Position numbers and translations under genes: made by a program
DNA from: Planctomycetaceae bacterium
Lineage (GTDB): Bacteria > Planctomycetota > Planctomycetia > Planctomycetales > Planctomycetaceae
Direction: 5' to 3'
Length of the DNA stretch: 64,000 nucleotides
Assembly (NCBI GenBank): GCA_002726205.1
Contig: PBSL01000021.1
Coordinates: forward strand, 1-64,000
The notes under the pieces: model-generated
Told to the model about the DNA's origin: nothing
Database searches by the model: none
What the model saw: the letters and a program-made list of their open reading frames with translations, nothing else
Part shown: one piece after another, positions 32,013 through 61,613 of the stretch
Position numbering within the stretch: position 1 is the first letter of the stretch
How the letters are laid out: the number at the start of each line of letters is the position of its first letter

Positions 32013-33398
32013 ATGAGCCAGTCAGACCAACCCCAAGGCCGTTCGCGGCGCGAGTTCCTGAAGAACACCGGCCGGGTCGCCGGCGCCGCGGCACTGGTCG
32101 GCAGCACGGCTCCGCATCTCTACGCCGCCGAGAACAACACGATCCAGCTTGCCCTGGTCGGGGCCGGTGGGCGTGGCACCGGGGCCGCTGCCAACGCGCT
32201 GGCCAGCACGGCCGGTCCGACACGGCTGGTCGCCATGGCCGATGTCTTCGACAACCGACTCAACAACTCCCACAGGGCTCTCAGCGGCCGTTTCAGCGGC
32301 AGCGTCGATGTGCCCGAAGACCGGCGGTTCATCGGCTTCGAAGCCTACCGTGAGGCAATGGACTGCCTGAGCCCCGGCGACGTGGTGATCCTGACAACCC
32401 CACCGGCTTTCCGCTGGGTGCAATTCACCTACGCGATCGAGAAGGGCTTGAACGTCTTCATGGAGAAGCCGATCACCGTCGATGGTCCGAGCAGCCGCAA
32501 GATGCTCGCCCTCGGCGAGCAATCAGTCAAGAAGAACATGAAGGTCGGTGTCGGCCTGATGTGTCGCCACTGCAAGGCCCGCCAGGAACTGTTCCGCCGG
32601 ATCAAGGACGGCCAGATCGGCGACGTGCTCGAACTGCGGGCCTACCGGATGGCCGGCCCCACCGGTTCGGCTGCCACCGGCAAGGTCCCCAAGGGCAAGT
32701 CCGAGTTGATGCACCAGATCAGCCGCTTTCACGCCTTCCTGTGGCTTTCCGGTGGTGCGGTCAGCGATTTCCTGATCCACAACATCGACGAGTCGTGCTG
32801 GATAAAGGATGCCTGGCCGGTCCAAGCCGAGGCTTCCGGTGGACGGCACTACCGTGGCGACGACGTCGACCAGAACTTCGACAGCTACTCGCTCGAGTAC
32901 ACCTTCGGCGACGGCACCAAGTTGCTGGTCAACGGCCGAACGATTCCCGGCTGCAACCAGCGGTTCGCCAGCCTGGCCCACGGCAGCAAGGGCTCGGCCG
33001 TCATTTCCGCCCGCGGTCACGCGCCCTCGCGGGCCCGGATCTACAAGGGCTGGAACATGACCAAGGAGAATCTGGTCTGGTCGTTCCCCGGCAAGGAGCC
33101 CAACCCCTACCAGGTGGAATGGGACGACCTGCTGACGGCGATCCGCCGCGACGAACCCTACAACGAGGTGCGGCGTGGCGCCGAGGCCAGCCTGGTCACC
33201 GCGATGGGTCGCATGGCGGCACACACCGGGCAGATCATTACCCGCGACCAGATGCTCGCCTGCGAGCACGAGTTCGCGCCGACGGTTGACCGGCTCAAGC
33301 TGGACGGGCCCTCACCGCTGAAGGCCAACGCCGACGGAACCTACCCGGTGCCGATGCCGGGGCTGTTGAAAGATCGTGAGTACGGATCGCTCGCCTGA
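32013..33398 (+). CDS. Secreted Gfo/Idh/MocA-family oxidoreductase with Tat signal
   Basis: A 461-residue exported dehydrogenase. SRREFLKNTGRVAGAAALVG is a twin-arginine signal, implying export of the folded, cofactor-loaded protein. The Rossmann motif follows immediately (LALVGAGGRGTGAAANAL), then MEKPITVDGPSSRKML as the family EKP signature and a long C-terminal domain with GGAVSDFLIHNIDESCWI. Such secreted sugar oxidoreductases are numerous in planctomycetes. Its stop overlaps the start of the next DUF1501 gene by one base (TGATG), so the two are translated together. Confidence 0.9.
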   Translation: MSQSDQPQGRSRREFLKNTGRVAGAAALVGSTAPHLYAAENNTIQLALVGAGGRGTGAAANALASTAGPTRLVAMADVFDNRLNNSHRALSGRFSGSVDVPEDRRFIGFEAYREAMDCLSPGDVVILTTPPAFRWVQFTYAIEKGLNVFMEKPITVDGPSSRKMLALGEQSVKKNMKVGVGLMCRHCKARQELFRRIKDGQIGDVLELRAYRMAGPTGSAATGKVPKGKSELMHQISRFHAFLWLSGGAVSDFLIHNIDESCWIKDAWPVQAEASGGRHYRGDDVDQNFDSYSLEYTFGDGTKLLVNGRTIPGCNQRFASLAHGSKGSAVISARGHAPSRARIYKGWNMTKENLVWSFPGKEPNPYQVEWDDLLTAIRRDEPYNEVRRGAEASLVTAMGRMAAHTGQIITRDQMLACEHEFAPTVDRLKLDGPSPLKANADGTYPVPMPGLLKDREYGSLA

Positions 33399-34879
33399 TG
33401 CCACACCCCGCACTTTCGCTGGACGCCACGCGTCGCCGGTTCCTGGGCCAGGTGGCCACGGGGCTGGGCGCGTTGTCGCTGCCGCATATCCTCAGGCTGC
33501 GGGCCGAGGCGGCGGCGGTGACCGGCCGTCGCGACAGGCGATTGATCCTGCTCTGGCAAGACGGCGGGCCAAGCCACCACGAGACGTTTGACCCAAAGCC
33601 CCGGGCACCGGCCGAGTACCGGGGCGAATTCGACGCGATCCCCACCGCCCTGCCGGGCGTCCAGTTCTGCGAGATCCTGCCGCGATTGGCCGCGTTGGCC
33701 GATCACTTCAACGTGATCCGTTCGATCCATCAACCCTCCTCGGGCCACGTCGTCGGCACGCACAACTTCATCACCGGTTACGACGGATCGCCGCTGGTCG
33801 GCGGTCGTTCCGAGTATCCCGACGTGGCCTCGATCATTCACCGTGTCCGTAGCCGCCAGCAGCAGGAAGCGGCACCGCTGGCGCTGGGAGCATCGACCGA
33901 TCCCCGGCTGGCCCGGGGCATGCGGGGGTCTCGTCGACGCAAATCACACGGCAGCGGGTTGCCCGGCTACATCGCGTTGGGCGGCCAGTCCTCGATCGGC
34001 CTGCACCGGGGAGGCTCGGCCTACCTCGGTCCGACATTCAACCCGTTCCAGGTGTCCGGTGATCCTTCGCGTCCGGGTTTCCAGGTCCAGAACCTGCAGG
34101 TCGGCGATGATCCCGGGAAGTTCCGCCAGCGGCAGGCCATCCTCAGGCAGCTCGATCGCTTCGTTCGCCGGGGAAGTCTCCAGTCGGAAATCGACCTGCA
34201 CGGACAGATCGAGGCGGCCGATCGCTACACGCAACAGGCCTTCGACCTGTTGACCGGATCCGGCCGCGCGGCGCGCGCGTTTGACCTGACCCGCGAAGAT
34301 CGCCGCACCCGCGAACGCTACGGGCTGGGAACGGCGGGCCAACAGGCCCTGCTGGCCCGCCGCCTGGTCGAAGCGGGTACCGACGTGGTCGCCATCCGCT
34401 TCTCGCCCGACGGTCGCGGCGACGGGGACCGGTCGGGGATCGGCTGGGACGACCATGCCGTCCACGGCAACATCTTCCAGATCATGCGACGCCGGGGGCC
34501 ACAGTTCGACCGCGCCGTCTCGGCCCTGGTCGAGGACCTGCAGCAACGCGGCCTGCACGACGATGTCCTGCTCGTCCTGGCCGGCGAATTCGGTCGCACG
34601 CCACGCATCCACGTCCACAAGGGATGCCCCGGCCGGGAACACTGGGGCCCGGCCGGCAACGTGATGCTCTACGGCGGAGGCCTGGCACGGGGCCAGATCG
34701 TCGGATCAACCAACTCCAGGGGCGAGCGGCCCGCCCACCGACCGCTGAAGCCCCAGGACGTGCTGGCGACAATCTACCACGTCCTGGGCATCGACCCCGC
34801 GCGAACCTTCAATAACACGTCGGGCCGTCCCGTCGCGATTCTCTCCAGCGGCGCCCCGGTCGCCGAACTGATCGGCTGA
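33398..34879 (+). CDS. DUF1501 secreted protein (copy 2)
   Basis: A 493-residue DUF1501 protein. ATRRRFLGQVATGLGALSL is a twin-arginine-type leader. Motifs: ILLWQDGGPSHHETFDPKP, IRSIHQPSSGHVVGTHNF, VLAGEFGRTPRIHVHKGCPG and a C-terminal RPAHRPLKPQDVLATIYHVLG. It overlaps the upstream Gfo/Idh/MocA gene by one base, so export and function of the two products are probably linked. It converges on the leucine-rich-repeat gene with a 17-base gap. Confidence 0.9.
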   Translation: MPHPALSLDATRRRFLGQVATGLGALSLPHILRLRAEAAAVTGRRDRRLILLWQDGGPSHHETFDPKPRAPAEYRGEFDAIPTALPGVQFCEILPRLAALADHFNVIRSIHQPSSGHVVGTHNFITGYDGSPLVGGRSEYPDVASIIHRVRSRQQQEAAPLALGASTDPRLARGMRGSRRRKSHGSGLPGYIALGGQSSIGLHRGGSAYLGPTFNPFQVSGDPSRPGFQVQNLQVGDDPGKFRQRQAILRQLDRFVRRGSLQSEIDLHGQIEAADRYTQQAFDLLTGSGRAARAFDLTREDRRTRERYGLGTAGQQALLARRLVEAGTDVVAIRFSPDGRGDGDRSGIGWDDHAVHGNIFQIMRRRGPQFDRAVSALVEDLQQRGLHDDVLLVLAGEFGRTPRIHVHKGCPGREHWGPAGNVMLYGGGLARGQIVGSTNSRGERPAHRPLKPQDVLATIYHVLGIDPARTFNNTSGRPVAILSSGAPVAELIG

Positions 34880-55314: not shown

Positions 55315-56795
55315 ATGTCACTCCACCCCACTTCGACACCAATGCCGCCCTGTGGGCGGGTTCACCGTCGCACGTTTCTTGCCGATACCGGCATGGGATT
55401 TACCGGGCTGGCACTGGGCGCGATGCTGGCCGGCGACAGCCCGGTCAGGGCAGCGGATTCGAACACCTGGAGCCTGCCCAGTGGCCTGGCGCGGGTCGCA
55501 CCCAGGGCCAAGAGCGTGATCTGGTTGTTCATGATCGGAGGAACCAGCCACCTCGAGTCGTTCGATCCCAAGCCGGCGGTCAACAAGTACCAGGGGCTGA
55601 CGATCGCCGAATCGCCGTACAACCAGCGGATCCTCGAGTCCCCCTTCTACCGCAAGAACGTGCGGGACTTCGCTGGAACACCGCGGAAGCTGATGAACAG
55701 GATCTACCCGTTGCAGGTCGGATACCGTAAACGGGGTGAAAGTGGAATCGAGGTCAGTGACTGGTGGCCTCACCTCTCGAGCTGTATCGACGAAATCGCC
55801 GTCGTCCGCTCGATGTGGACCACCGACAACGACCACGCCGCGCAGCTGCAGTTCCACACCGGTCGCCACATCTTCGACGGTTTCTTTCCGTCGATTGGCT
55901 CCTGGGTCCACTACGGCCTCGGTTCGCTCAACGAAAATCTCCCGCAGTTCCTGGTCCTGGGCACCCCGCCCCGTGATTGCTGTGGTGGCGTCGGGGCCCA
56001 CGGAGCCGATTATCTCGGTCCCCAGCATGCCGGCGTGCAGATGCGGATCGATCCGAAGAACCCGCTGCCGTTTGGTACCCCGGGTGCCTCGGTCTACCAG
56101 GAAGAACGCGCCGACCAGATGGAACTGCTCAGGGAACTCAACGGCCTGGCCGCCATCGAGTACCCCGGCGACGCGGCAATGCGGGCGCGGGTCAAGTCCT
56201 ACGAACTGGCCTACCGCATGCAGATGGCCGTCCCCGACGTCATGAACCTCGACGGCGAAACCGCCGCCACGCGCTCACTCTACGGGCTCGACCGCGATCC
56301 GACCCGGCGATTCGGCCAGCAGTGCCTGCTGGCCCGACGGTTCGTCGAGAAAGGCGTGCGGTTCGTGCAGTTGTACGACGGGGGCTGGGACGCTCACAGC
56401 AAGCTGATCTCGAACCACTCCACCAGGATCGGCCAGACCGACCAGCCGATCGCCGGCTTGCTGAAGGATCTCAGGCAACGGGGCCTGCTCGACGAAACCC
56501 TGGTCGTCTGGGAACCGAGTTTGGCCGGACGCCCGGGGCCGAGAATTCCGACGGTCGCGATCACCATCCGTACGGGTTCTCGATCTGGATGGCCGGCGGA
56601 GGCATCAAGGGCGGCACCGTCCATGGTGCAACCGACGAGCTGGGATTTCACGCGGCCGAGCATCGGCACTACGTCACCGATGTCCACGCCACGGTGCTTC
56701 ACCAACTGGGGCTGGATCCCCACGCGTTGGAGGTTCCCGGCCACAAGCGGCTGGAAATCGATTTCGGCAAGCCGATCCACGAGATCATCGCCTAG
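55315..56795 (+). pseudogene. DUF1501 protein (copy 4), frameshifted near the 3' end
   Basis: The N-terminal 400 residues read as a normal DUF1501 protein (leader RRTFLADTGMGFTGLALGAM; WLFMIGGTSHLESFDPKP; IRSMWTT variant VVRSMWTTDNDHAAQLQFHT). At LVVWE (near 56511) the family motif [10 protein letters not shown] is broken: in this frame it reads [10 protein letters not shown], while the -1 frame continues [20 protein letters not shown] and on to HEIIA, stop at 56795. One missing G in the run at 56510-56512 (three where four are needed) explains it. In the original frame translation would run to 57060 with non-family sequence. It may be a real mutation or a base-calling error. Confidence 0.85.
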
Positions 56796-56960
56796 CGAAA
56801 ACGGTCCCGGGCGACCGATTGCCGAGAAGGCCACCGGTGACAAACCCGTGGGGATCGTTCATCATGGGAGCCTCGGCGGGCAACCTCGCCTCGAGTTCGA
56901 GGGGAGGCCAGCCTCCCGCGGATTCTCGAGACAGCCCAACACACGCAGGACGACGCGGAC

Positions 56961-57884
56961 GTGGACGGAACCGATACCGAGTTGGCGACCTTCCTTCACG
57001 GCAACGTGGCGGTGGCCGACACGTTTGCCGAGGCTTTCACGATGGTCGGCACCCGGCTGATCGTGACCGCGGTCACGCCGGAATGGGCCACAATAGCCGG
57101 CGAACAGGCAACCGGTTTCGCCACCAGCGTGATCGCCTGCAGTGCCGAGGCGGCAATCGAACGGGAACTCGCTCCCGAAGACACGCCCGACGGGCGACCG
57201 GGCGTTTCGCTGCTGCTGTTTGCCTTCAGCCGTGATGCGCTTTCCGCGGCGGTCGTCGATCGCGTGGGCCAGTGCATCCTGACCTGCCCGACCACGGCCT
57301 GTTACAACGGCCTGGCCACCGATGACCCCGACAACCGAATCAACATCGGGGGCCAGTTGCGGTTCTTCGGCGATGGTTTCCAGGGCTCCAAGAAACTCGG
57401 TGATCGCCGCCTCTGGCGAGTGCCGGTGATGGACGGGGAATTTCTCTGCGAGGAACACTTCGGCACCGCCAAGGGCGTGGCCGGCGGCAACCTGCTGATC
57501 TGCGGCACGAGTGCCGAGGCGGCGCTGGAAGCCGCCGTTACTGCCGCCGTCGCGATGCGACTGGTGCCCGACTGCATCCTGCCCTTCCCCGGTGGGCTGG
57601 TTCGCAGCGGCAGCAAGGTCGGCTCGCGCTACAAGGCGCTCAAGGCCAGCACCAATGATGCCTGGTGCCCGACACTTCGTGCCCGGACCGAATCGGTTCT
57701 GCCCGATTCGGTCGAAACCGTCTACGAGATCGTCATCGACGGCCTGACGCTGGAATCGGTCACCGAGGCCATGCGAGTAGGACTGGAGGCCGCGGTCGCA
57801 TCTGACGGTGTCGAATTGGTCGGGGCCGGCAATTACGGCGGCCAACTCGGACAGCATCACATTCATCTCCGCGAGCTGGTCTGA
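56961..57884 (+). CDS. ftr: Formylmethanofuran--tetrahydromethanopterin N-formyltransferase
   Basis: A 307-residue enzyme that transfers a formyl group between formylmethanofuran and tetrahydromethanopterin, part of the archaeal-type C1 pathway also found in planctomycetes and methylotrophs (FhcD). Family hallmarks: DTFAEAFTM, ATGFATSVIACSAEAAIE, EDTPDGRPGVSLL, RVGQCILTCPTTACYN, LRFFGDGFQ, GVAGGNLLIC, PFPGGLVRSGSKVGS, STNDAWCPTLRAR and GAGNYGGQLGQHHIHL. GTG 56961 is the likely start. No other H4MPT gene (mch, fhcABC, mtd) is in the window, so it is stranded from the rest of its pathway here. Confidence 0.93.
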   Translation: MDGTDTELATFLHGNVAVADTFAEAFTMVGTRLIVTAVTPEWATIAGEQATGFATSVIACSAEAAIERELAPEDTPDGRPGVSLLLFAFSRDALSAAVVDRVGQCILTCPTTACYNGLATDDPDNRINIGGQLRFFGDGFQGSKKLGDRRLWRVPVMDGEFLCEEHFGTAKGVAGGNLLICGTSAEAALEAAVTAAVAMRLVPDCILPFPGGLVRSGSKVGSRYKALKASTNDAWCPTLRARTESVLPDSVETVYEIVIDGLTLESVTEAMRVGLEAAVASDGVELVGAGNYGGQLGQHHIHLRELV

Positions 57885-57915: not shown

Positions 57916-59304
57916 ATGTCCGAGACCATCCAGGCCCACGCAACGGTGGATTCGACGACCCGCGCCATCGATCCCCCGTTGTCACCCTTGCTTCGCTGGA
58001 GCCTGGTCGGGCTTGGTTCGGCACTGGCCGCCATCGCCATCCTGCGTGCCGAATCACTGCTGAGTGCCAACGACCGCTCGCGATGGTGCACCGTCTGGTC
58101 ACTGGTCGAACACGGCAGCTACCGGATCGACGAGATCGATGCCCGCAAGGTACTCCACAAGCCCTCGGGAAAACGGCGACGGCGTTTCGGCACGATCGAC
58201 AAGGTCTACCACGAGGGCCATTTCTACTCGACCAAGCCACCGCTGTATCCCACGCTGGTCGCCGGACTCTACGCGGCAGTCAAGACCACGACGGGCTGGA
58301 ACCTGGTCGAGCAGACCGAGGCGGTCTCGCACGTCATCCTGATGCTGGTCAACTGGCTGCCGTGGACCATCGCCCTGGTGGTGCTTTCGCGGATGCTGGA
58401 TCGCTATGCCCGCCACCGCTCGACGCGGATCCTGCTGTTGACCACCGCCGCAGTCGGCACCCTGCTGCTGCCGTTCCTGGTGGCGTTGAACAACCACACC
58501 GTCGCCGCCACGGCCGTGATTTTTTCACTGTCGTCGATCCTGAGAATCACGATCGACGGAGATCATCGCAGGCGGCACTTTGCCGTGGCCGGTTTCTTCG
58601 TCAGTTGGGCAGCGGCCAACGAACTGCCGGCCGCAGCGTTTGCCGTCGTGGCCACAATCCTGCTGTTGCAGAGCAACCCGCGTCGTACCCTGACGGTCTT
58701 CCTGCCCCTGGCGCTGATTCCGCTGGCCGCGTTCCTGGGAACCAATCTCCTGGCCACGGGGGGATGGAAACCGTTTTACGCGTATTACGGCACCGAGAAA
58801 TATCTGTGGACTGTCGATGGGGTCGAGAGTTACTGGAAAAACCCCAAAGGGATTGACCGCGGCGGGGACTCGATGCCGGTCTACCTGATGCACTGCCTGG
58901 TCGGCCACCACGGCGTGTTTTCATTGTCGCCGATCTGGCTGGTCTGGTTGCTTGGCACAACCGGCCGCGTCCGCCAATCCGGTTCCCCGCTGGCTGGACT
59001 CTGGAGATCGAGCGTGGTGCTGACGCTGGTCGTGCTGGGTTTCTACCTGTCGCGAACGGCCAACTACAACTACGGCGGTGTCAGCTGCGCCCTGCGTTGG
59101 ACACTCTGGCTGGTCCCGCTCTGGCTGGTTTCGTCGGCCCCCACACTCGACGCCTGGGCCGACCGGGGACGGGGCATCTTGCTCGGGGCCTGGTTCCTGC
59201 TGGCCGTCTCGTCGGTCTCGGTATTTCTGCCGCTGGAAAACCCCTTCCAGCACCCCTGGTTATTCCGTTTGATGGAGGACTGGGGCTGGATCGCATACCA
59301 GTGA
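57916..59304 (+). CDS. Polytopic membrane protein, GT-C/GT39-like
   Basis: A 462-residue integral membrane protein with about ten hydrophobic helices from ATG 57916. The first outer loop has an unusual charged segment (RRRRFGTIDKVYHEGHFYST), and later loops have WTVDGVESYWKNPKGIDRGG. The layout resembles membrane mannosyl-type transferases, but a clear catalytic Asp/Glu pair is less certain than in the 22.9-kb protein, so the enzymatic call is tentative. It lies 31 bases after ftr in the same direction. Confidence 0.72.
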   Translation: MSETIQAHATVDSTTRAIDPPLSPLLRWSLVGLGSALAAIAILRAESLLSANDRSRWCTVWSLVEHGSYRIDEIDARKVLHKPSGKRRRRFGTIDKVYHEGHFYSTKPPLYPTLVAGLYAAVKTTTGWNLVEQTEAVSHVILMLVNWLPWTIALVVLSRMLDRYARHRSTRILLLTTAAVGTLLLPFLVALNNHTVAATAVIFSLSSILRITIDGDHRRRHFAVAGFFVSWAAANELPAAAFAVVATILLLQSNPRRTLTVFLPLALIPLAAFLGTNLLATGGWKPFYAYYGTEKYLWTVDGVESYWKNPKGIDRGGDSMPVYLMHCLVGHHGVFSLSPIWLVWLLGTTGRVRQSGSPLAGLWRSSVVLTLVVLGFYLSRTANYNYGGVSCALRWTLWLVPLWLVSSAPTLDAWADRGRGILLGAWFLLAVSSVSVFLPLENPFQHPWLFRLMEDWGWIAYQ

Positions 59305-59897: not shown

Positions 59898-60458
59898 ATG
59901 CACGCTTCGCAGATCGTGCTGCTGCTGCTGGTTGCCATCGCCTCGGTCACCGACACCACGCGAGGTCGCATCTACAACTGGACAACCTACCCCGGCCTGC
60001 TGGCCGGATTGCTGTTTCAATCTCTTGACGTTTCCAACGCGGGCCACCTGGAATTCAACGCGACCGGCCTGACCGAGTGCCTGCTCGGAGTGGCCGGCTG
60101 TGGAGGTATCATGCTGGCCTGTTTCCTGCTCTCCGACATGGGTGGCGGCGACGTCAAGCTGTTGGCCGTCGTCGGAGCGTTCCTGGGTCTGCAGAACGGG
60201 CTCACGGCGCTGTTGTGGACAATCGTCCTGGGCGGTTTCGGCGGGCTGGCGATGCTCGTCTGGCGAGTCGGCGCCGGCCGGATCCTCGTCGGCACCTTCA
60301 AACACCTGTCCCTGGCGCTACGGTCGCGGGGCTGGGTCCCCCTGGAACCAGCCGAACGTGAACCGCTGGGACGAACACTCTACCTGGCACCGGCCGCGCT
60401 GCTCGGTGTCCTGCTGACCATCACTGGAGTAACCGAACAGCTCTCTGCCATTTTCTAG
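59898..60458 (+). CDS. Prepilin peptidase of the Tad/Flp system (A24, TadV/CpaA-like)
   Basis: A 186-residue polytopic aspartic peptidase that removes the leader of Flp and TadE-like proteins at the membrane. The two catalytic aspartates are Asp19 (ASVTDTTRGRIYN) and Asp85 in the GxGD motif (DMGGGDVKLLAVVGAFLG). Length and absence of a methyltransferase domain match TadV/CpaA rather than PilD. It starts 45 bases after the pilin gene. Confidence 0.9.
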   Translation: MHASQIVLLLLVAIASVTDTTRGRIYNWTTYPGLLAGLLFQSLDVSNAGHLEFNATGLTECLLGVAGCGGIMLACFLLSDMGGGDVKLLAVVGAFLGLQNGLTALLWTIVLGGFGGLAMLVWRVGAGRILVGTFKHLSLALRSRGWVPLEPAEREPLGRTLYLAPAALLGVLLTITGVTEQLSAIF

Positions 60459-60497
60459 TCGACGACGACGGGGCCGGATGACACCGGCGCCTGGTCA

Positions 60498-61613
60498 TTG
60501 GCTCCCGATTCCCGACCGGTTTCCGCCGTGCTCCACATCCTGATCAACGACTGCCGCCCCTGCCTGTATGCCCTGGGCATTGCGCTGGTGGTATTGCTGA
60601 TTGTACTTCGTGTCAGCGGTGCACGACTGGACCTGGGACGGTTGCGACAATTGCACGGTTGCCAACGTGGCGGCGTGCAAAGCCTGGCGTTCGTGCTGAC
60701 CTTGCCGATCTTCGTGATGATCGTGATGTTCATCGTGCAGGTCAGCCAGTTGATGATCGGCCAGGTCGTCGTGAACTACGCGGCCTTCGGAGCCGCCCGC
60801 AGCCTGGCCGCCTGGGTCCCCCAGTATGTCGTCGAACTCGAACCCGAGGGGGATCCGCTGGGGTTGGAACTGCATGGCCAAAACGTCATTCGCGACACGC
60901 GATTCCGATCGGGCCAGGACTTCGGCTACTGCTACGTCGGCGGTACCCGCGAGGACGGTTTCGTTGATTCGGCCAATGGCGGTCCCCAGGCGACCGAGAA
61001 CCTGTTGAAGTTCGACCGTGCCTTCCGGTCGGCCACGTCGGCCTGTGCCACGATTTCCCCCTCCCGGCACCTGGGCCTCACGATCGAGTCAAAGGCCCTC
61101 GACCGATTCGACGCGACCTGGAGTGCCTGGCAGTTGTTCGCCACAACCAACGCGTCGAGCCAGACCCGCTCGAGGCTCTACAACAAGTTCTGCTACAGCT
61201 TCTGGAACACCGAGCTGTGGATCCGTTTCCAGAACCGCAACGCCCAACTCGGGCCGACCTACAACCCCATCGGCCACCCGGTTCATCAATTCCAGTCCAA
61301 CGAGGTGGGCTGGCAGGATCCGATCACCGTACTGGTGCGGCACAACCTGGCGTTGCTGCCGGGCCCGGGCCGTTGGCTGGCCAAACACCTTGTCACGCCC
61401 GGTGGCCCACCCGACAGGGTCAGCAATCGCATTGCCGAACGTGCCGGACCCCGACGCCAAACCGACACGACCAATGATTCCGGCAGCGGTCCCCACGACC
61501 CCCTCTACAACCGCCGCGTCTTCACGACCACGATCTGGGCCCGGGCCACGGTAACCAACGACGGTGTCAAGTCCCTTGTCCCCTACATGCATGCCATCAA
61601 TGTTGCTCAATAA
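60498..61613 (+). CDS. TadE-like pseudopilin with large outer domain
   Basis: A 371-residue membrane-anchored protein. Near residue 56 comes RGGVQSLAFVLTLPIFVMIV, the TadE-type prepilin-like segment, followed by VVNYAAFGAARSLAAWVP. The remainder is a soluble domain (Arg/Thr/Asn-rich, several cysteines) with no recognised motif. An earlier hydrophobic helix (about 20-40) is unusual for TadE. The start is uncertain: TTG 60498 or GTG 60528. The stop lies inside the next gene's start, so the two are coupled. Confidence 0.75.
   Translation: MAPDSRPVSAVLHILINDCRPCLYALGIALVVLLIVLRVSGARLDLGRLRQLHGCQRGGVQSLAFVLTLPIFVMIVMFIVQVSQLMIGQVVVNYAAFGAARSLAAWVPQYVVELEPEGDPLGLELHGQNVIRDTRFRSGQDFGYCYVGGTREDGFVDSANGGPQATENLLKFDRAFRSATSACATISPSRHLGLTIESKALDRFDATWSAWQLFATTNASSQTRSRLYNKFCYSFWNTELWIRFQNRNAQLGPTYNPIGHPVHQFQSNEVGWQDPITVLVRHNLALLPGPGRWLAKHLVTPGGPPDRVSNRIAERAGPRRQTDTTNDSGSGPHDPLYNRRVFTTTIWARATVTNDGVKSLVPYMHAINVAQ

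Follow-up and report, generated by a model that had tools for sequence, protein, structure and literature searches.

An ftr gene that stands apart from the other genes of its pathway raises the question whether it still serves that pathway, is left over from it or has acquired a new role. Such a gene lies in the 64,000-nucleotide stretch of Planctomycetaceae bacterium DNA analysed here (the window), which is found on contig C21 of a draft genome (G000; 4.86 Mb, 76 contigs, 96% complete). The preliminary description of the window had placed ftr alone between a broken DUF1501 gene and a membrane protein, had considered its position informative because ftr is usually clustered with fhcABC and mch, and had proposed that planctomycetes hold an early-branching version of the tetrahydromethanopterin (H4MPT) pathway. 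The H4MPT and methanofuran genes of planctomycetes have long been known (PMC5020050, PMC3505017).

The window ftr encodes an intact class-1 formyltransferase

The open reading frame of the window ftr encodes 307 amino acids from a GTG start codon, and a TTG seven codons inward is an alternative start. Profile searches bore out its assignment to the tetrahydromethanopterin pathway. The protein scored 427 bits (E = 3.3e-128) with the NCBIfam equivalog TIGR03119, above the curated cut-off of 292.6, and 432.8 bits with PRK02114. Both Pfam lobes (PF01913+PF02741) are nearly complete (FTR, positions 5-142 of 142; FTR_C, positions 1-149 of 149). The protein is 56.0% identical to Methylorubrum FhcD (6s6y_D) and 48.8% identical to M. 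kandleri Ftr (1ftr). Our alignment had 31 class-1 rows, one of them the window Ftr, as well as 15 rows of class 2 and two Ftr chains of solved structure. All 49 invariant columns of this alignment are kept by the window Ftr, among them Glu245 (M. kandleri number), a residue with a catalytic role. Class-2 signature residues were not found in the window Ftr, and both alignment and tree assign it to class 1. The window gene is a known enzyme type and ordinary for its planctomycete group (Table 1).

Table 1. Features around the window ftr and partner genes in the window genome
Feature	Location	Strand	Remarks
DUF1501 protein, split	Window 55315..56795	+	One frame change near 56511; outside C1 pathway
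ftr / fhcD, class 1 (Ftr1)	Window 56961..57884	+	Formylmethanofuran--tetrahydromethanopterin N-formyltransferase, intact
Membrane protein	Window 57916..59304	+	Start approximate; ORF opens at 57808, overlapping ftr
mch	G000 C59:63303-64235		Profile match 390 bits
fhcA	G000 C69:122131-123753		752 bits
fhcB	G000 C69:120845-122095		486 bits; adjoins fhcA
fhcC	G000 C1:84392-85198		246 bits; contig other than fhcA/B
fae	G000 C75:31516-31992		Adjoins mtdB-type gene
mtdB-type gene (PF09176)	G000 C75:32206-32448		
mfnB (PF04476)	G000 C11:71665-72324		

Pathway partners in the window genome

Absence of all other pathway genes would have suggested a relic or a new role for ftr. Every H4MPT and methanofuran partner gene searched for is present in G000, each on a contig other than that of ftr. 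The search covered fhcA, fhcB, fhcC, mch and mtdB, as had been suggested, and found fae and mfnB in addition. The C1 pathway genes lie at five separate places in the genome, or six when mfnB is counted; operon-scale statements for G000 rest on draft contigs. An aldehyde ferredoxin oxidoreductase gene (AFOR_N, AFOR_C; L081:2469-4307) is located upstream of fhcB-fhcA on G000:C69.

The FhcB of G000 scored 361-365 bits with the archaeal-type FwdB/FmdB chains 8rja_B and 9sfi_Q, and 53 bits with Methylorubrum 6s6y_B. One of its cysteines aligns with the SVCHGP/SVXHGP site, at which one solved chain has X, taken as selenocysteine, and the other has Cys. This Cys is presumably a metal ligand. These comparisons predict that the FhcB of G000 is of the archaeal, cysteine-bearing dehydrogenase type. 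The fhcB genes of relatives G028, G041, G062 and G080 contain one in-frame TGA, which in G028 and G041 is located at the codon where G000 has Cys. Selenocysteine-containing FmdB has already been published for planctomycetes (PMC4807772).

The window gene very probably encodes a working class-1 Ftr that performs one step of a complete Fae/MtdB-type/Mch/Ftr/FhcA/B/C chain. Fae would join formaldehyde to H4MPT to give methylene-H4MPT, which the MtdB-type dehydrogenase would convert to methenyl-H4MPT and Mch, in turn, to formyl-H4MPT. Class-1 Ftr would transfer the formyl group between methanofuran and the N5 position of tetrahydromethanopterin, giving formylmethanofuran. In the final step, FhcA/B/C would oxidise formylmethanofuran to CO2 (or act in reverse) rather than hydrolyse it to formate. 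Because the FhcB of G000 is of the archaeal type with a metal-ligand cysteine, CO2 is most likely the end point and not formate. The searches show what the gene is and that all the partners looked for are present, whereas it is from sequence that we infer the activity of Ftr in G000, the direction in which the pathway runs and CO2 as its end point. An archaeal dehydrogenase-type FhcB with this cysteine would also suit a mainly reductive pathway, in which CO2 would be turned into formylmethanofuran by FhcABC, and Ftr would supply formyl-H4MPT to biosynthesis. We regard this direction as rather unlikely, since the position of fae beside the mtdB-type gene points to formaldehyde oxidation.

C1 gene scattering and the neighbours of ftr

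Ftr of any kind was found in 96 of the 99 genomes searched and class-1 Ftr in 92. mch was likewise found in 92, and fhcA and fhcC were each above cut-off in 90; for fhcB, fae and the mtdB-type gene, the search covered 18 of the 99. Profile searches of G069, G093 and G094 detected no Ftr, Mch, Fae or MtdB, and no full-length Fhc subunit. In family f1, to which the window genome belongs, 57 genomes have class-1 Ftr. Three of these (G020, G033 and G046) have fhcA or fhcC no more than about 10 kb from ftr, compared to 20 of 35 genomes in other families; these counts were read by eye, and contig ends may hide some. mch was not seen by eye within 10 kb of ftr in any of the 57 f1 genomes; it is also close to ftr in eight f2 genomes (G070, G074, G079, G082, G085, G088, G091 and G097). 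Since fhcA or fhcC is so much less often near ftr in family f1 than elsewhere, the dispersal of the C1 genes characterises the family, and the position of the window ftr, which had been thought unusual, is not. A clustered fhc-mch arrangement was not found at the window ftr, as fhcA/B/C and mch are all on other contigs, and adjacency to these genes is not a defining feature of the Ftr enzyme family. The analysis of the window removes a suspected oddity and shows scattering to be a trait of the family; it also contributes a class-1 Ftr whose pathway is complete and includes a predicted archaeal-type FhcB. A fragment matching fhcA positions 2-66 was observed directly upstream of the class-1 ftr of another genome (G052:C10:96471-96668), and may be what is left of an earlier fhcA-ftr cluster.

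The upstream DUF1501 gene is indeed broken. Profile positions 1-295 are in the frame of ORF 55315-57060, and positions 296-389 in that of ORF 55977-56795. Because the two halves abut near base 56511, the gene has a single frame change and not general decay. The change may be a mutation or an assembly error. A second DUF1501 gene in the window (33398-34879) is intact, and a PSCyt1/DUF1549/DUF1553 protein is also encoded upstream of ftr. Genes for an A24 prepilin peptidase and then a TadE-like protein are located at 59898-61613 of the window. The frameshifted neighbour, together with the distance of ftr from fhc and mch, might suggest that ftr is left over from a lost pathway. This is scarcely credible, and we ruled it out: ftr is intact with all its invariant columns, every other pathway gene searched for is present in G000, and an unlinked layout is the norm of the family. 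In the genomes with a real loss (G069, G093 and G094), Ftr, Mch, Fae and MtdB are missing together, and no full-length Fhc subunit is left.

The description of ftr as isolated holds in that neither fhc nor mch adjoins it, but not in respect of the membrane protein, whose gene directly follows ftr, in the same orientation, in 32 of the 57 class-1 genomes of the family. Such direct adjacency could mean that the two form a functional unit, the protein being, for example, a membrane anchor or a transporter for C1 carriers. We consider this very unlikely. The membrane protein is present in 98 of the 99 genomes, including the three without the whole pathway, lies far from ftr in some genomes, and was adjacent to ftr in none of the 35 genomes outside the family when these were read by eye. 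As a C1 unit the pair is a weak candidate, because the protein occurs even where the pathway is absent; for the same reason we read it as a neighbour that has been conserved but is probably no enzyme of the pathway. It has a weak match to putative glycosyltransferases of the LA_3751/LA_3752 type (28 bits; cut-off 200), and looks like the product of a glycosyltransferase-like housekeeping gene.

Placement of the window Ftr in the Ftr tree

The Ftr tree has 66 rows. The relatives contributed 30 of their 92 class-1 and 15 of their 46 class-2 genes, and 10 of 30 fetched gammaproteobacterial class-1 loci were used. The window Ftr was placed among the planctomycete class-1 rows. Planctomycete and proteobacterial class-1 rows formed one group (99/99). 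A tree with archaeal and proteobacterial copies had been proposed as a check; the three archaeal chains fell apart from bacterial class 1 (97/87), but the position of the proteobacterial class-1 rows inside the planctomycete diversity had weak support (93/68). With regard to an early-branching planctomycete version of the pathway, the placement fits a deep planctomycete Ftr set, but one gene does not settle the history.

A second class of Ftr often adjoins a 5-formyltetrahydrofolate cyclo-ligase gene

Class-2 Ftr was found in 46 of the 99 genomes, beside or instead of class 1, with scores of 271-335 bits; none was found in G000. The 15 aligned class-2 proteins have a mean identity of 67% among themselves and about 44% to class 1. 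All 49 invariant columns are kept in them, and they are marked by an insertion of four residues and by several residues specific to their class. Class-2 proteins L085 and L089 scored 312 and 328 bits, respectively, with TIGR03119. In the 66-row tree, the class-2 rows formed one group (100/97) that also takes in five loci bearing the label Gammaproteobacteria, Chromatiales or Methylococcaceae; these five are nested among the planctomycete rows (100/98), although the labels of these draft genomes may be wrong. A predicted model of L142, with a mean pLDDT of 83 and weak stretches at 216-227 and 291-293, matches 1ftr with a TM-score of 0.86. The model confirms the Ftr fold only, and cannot tell the formyl acceptor.

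5-Formyltetrahydrofolate cyclo-ligase is the only conserved neighbour of class-2 Ftr within 3.5 kb. Its gene lies immediately upstream, in the same orientation, in 24 of the 46 class-2 loci of the relatives (L085, L087-L131) and in 61 of 80 named class-2 loci (L141-L220; best 80 of 546 relatives); the two sets overlap in genomes, and the counts are not additive. At least two of the 22 relatives' loci without it directly upstream are cut by a contig end, and at L108 a cyclo-ligase fragment is found downstream of class-2 Ftr instead of a gene upstream. The cyclo-ligase is also upstream in four of the five gammaproteobacterial loci, with aligned ends 12-15 bases apart, and the fifth locus is cut by a contig end. 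Two planctomycete cyclo-ligases tested scored 151-153 bits with TIGR02727 (cut-off 84.9).

The two genes also occur together across genomes. Both were found in 45 genomes, class-2 Ftr only in one, the cyclo-ligase only in 35 and neither in 18 (Fisher p = 5e-5). The corresponding numbers are 31, 1, 14 and 15 within the family (p = 1.6e-5), and 25, 0, 11 and 6 for family genomes at least 95% complete (p = 0.002); kinship was ignored in all three comparisons. The sole class-2 genome without a cyclo-ligase (G009) is 79% complete. TIGR02727 had no match in 19 of the 99 genomes, one of them G000. No genome gave more than one cyclo-ligase match apart from G044, whose second match is a fragment. Joint transfer of the pair is unsupported, because the gammaproteobacterial cyclo-ligases do not nest among the planctomycete rows in the cyclo-ligase tree (100/100 split; unrooted, no outgroup). 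We found no earlier report of the pair in searches of open-licence papers, the two founding 2004 papers on planctomycete C1 genes excepted, and a paper on essential genes in Planctopirus mentions none of the C1 terms searched for in its main text.

Ftr in genomes without Fhc

Besides mch, fae and an mtdB-type gene, genomes G007 and G060, which are probably Alienimonas, contain a class-2 Ftr; profile searches detected in them neither class-1 Ftr nor a full-length FhcA, FhcB or FhcC. The complete genome G012 contains a third, very divergent Ftr (L086, G012:C1:3276027-3276881; 239 bits) that differs at 17 of the 49 invariant columns and has no FPGG loop. Fae, MtdB and Mch are present in G012, and neither Fhc nor mfnB was found there. 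All three genomes have a cyclo-ligase away from Ftr. Since mfnB is present in G007 (179 bits), methanofuran may still be made in this genome, and the idea that Ftr occurs without Fhc only where methanofuran is not made is unsupported for it. mfnB was not found in G060, but this assembly is split into 360 contigs. Loss of Fhc is not general with class-2 Ftr, because FhcA is present in all five gammaproteobacterial class-2 genomes.

A possible link between the H4MPT and folate pools

Exchange of C1 units between H4MPT and folate is usually drawn via free formate or formaldehyde, and 5-formyl-THF is usually regarded as a by-product. We tentatively raise the possibility that class-2 Ftr and the cyclo-ligase bridge the two C1 pools in planctomycetes and some gammaproteobacteria. 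Class-2 Ftr would pass the formyl group that Mch makes on H4MPT to tetrahydrofolate, directly or via methanofuran, and the resulting 5-formyl-THF would be turned by the cyclo-ligase and ATP into 5,10-methenyl-THF for biosynthesis. In Alienimonas and Stratiformator, which have no Fhc, C1 units would leave H4MPT solely by way of a divergent Ftr of the class-2 kind. However, the columns invariant in methanofuran-using Ftr are also kept in class 2, and the adjacency is missing from roughly half of the loci of the relatives, including those of two Fhc-free genomes. Moreover, the cyclo-ligase is a common housekeeping gene. Class 2 might alternatively be an ordinary Ftr whose cyclo-ligase neighbour has been kept by descent. 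The pair might also remove 5-formyl-THF as a by-product, for which formiminotransferases offer a precedent (PMC3223725).

If class-2 Ftr and the cyclo-ligase do connect the two pools, C1 units could pass from H4MPT to folate without going through formate, and 5-formyl-THF would gain a role in a pathway. With a conserved formyltransferase/cyclo-ligase gene pair in two phyla, and the formyltransferase kept without Fhc, the direct route becomes testable, and Alienimonas californiensis CA12 and Stratiformator vulcanicus Pan189 are cultured strains for this question. Such a result would matter more than the window gene itself; it lies outside the window, and G000 has neither gene of the pair.

Comparison with known systems

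Archaeal Ftr (M. kandleri 1ftr/2fhj/2fhk, M. barkeri 1m5s and A. fulgidus 1m5h) belongs to the same family as the window Ftr but, unlike it, falls outside the bacterial class-1 group in the tree. The class-2 Ftr of Planctomycetota and some Gammaproteobacteria is also of this family. It differs from the window Ftr by its identity of about 44% and its four-residue insertion and, unlike the window Ftr, often adjoins the cyclo-ligase gene; it is absent from G000. Methylorubrum extorquens FhcABCD (PDB 6s6y) shares with the window genome the same Ftr family and the same pathway partners, whereas the window genome has dispersed genes and a predicted archaeal-type FhcB with the presumed metal-ligand Cys. 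The selenocysteine FmdB of planctomycete P2 (PMC4807772) is the same FhcB/FmdB subunit with the same site, at which G000 has Cys.
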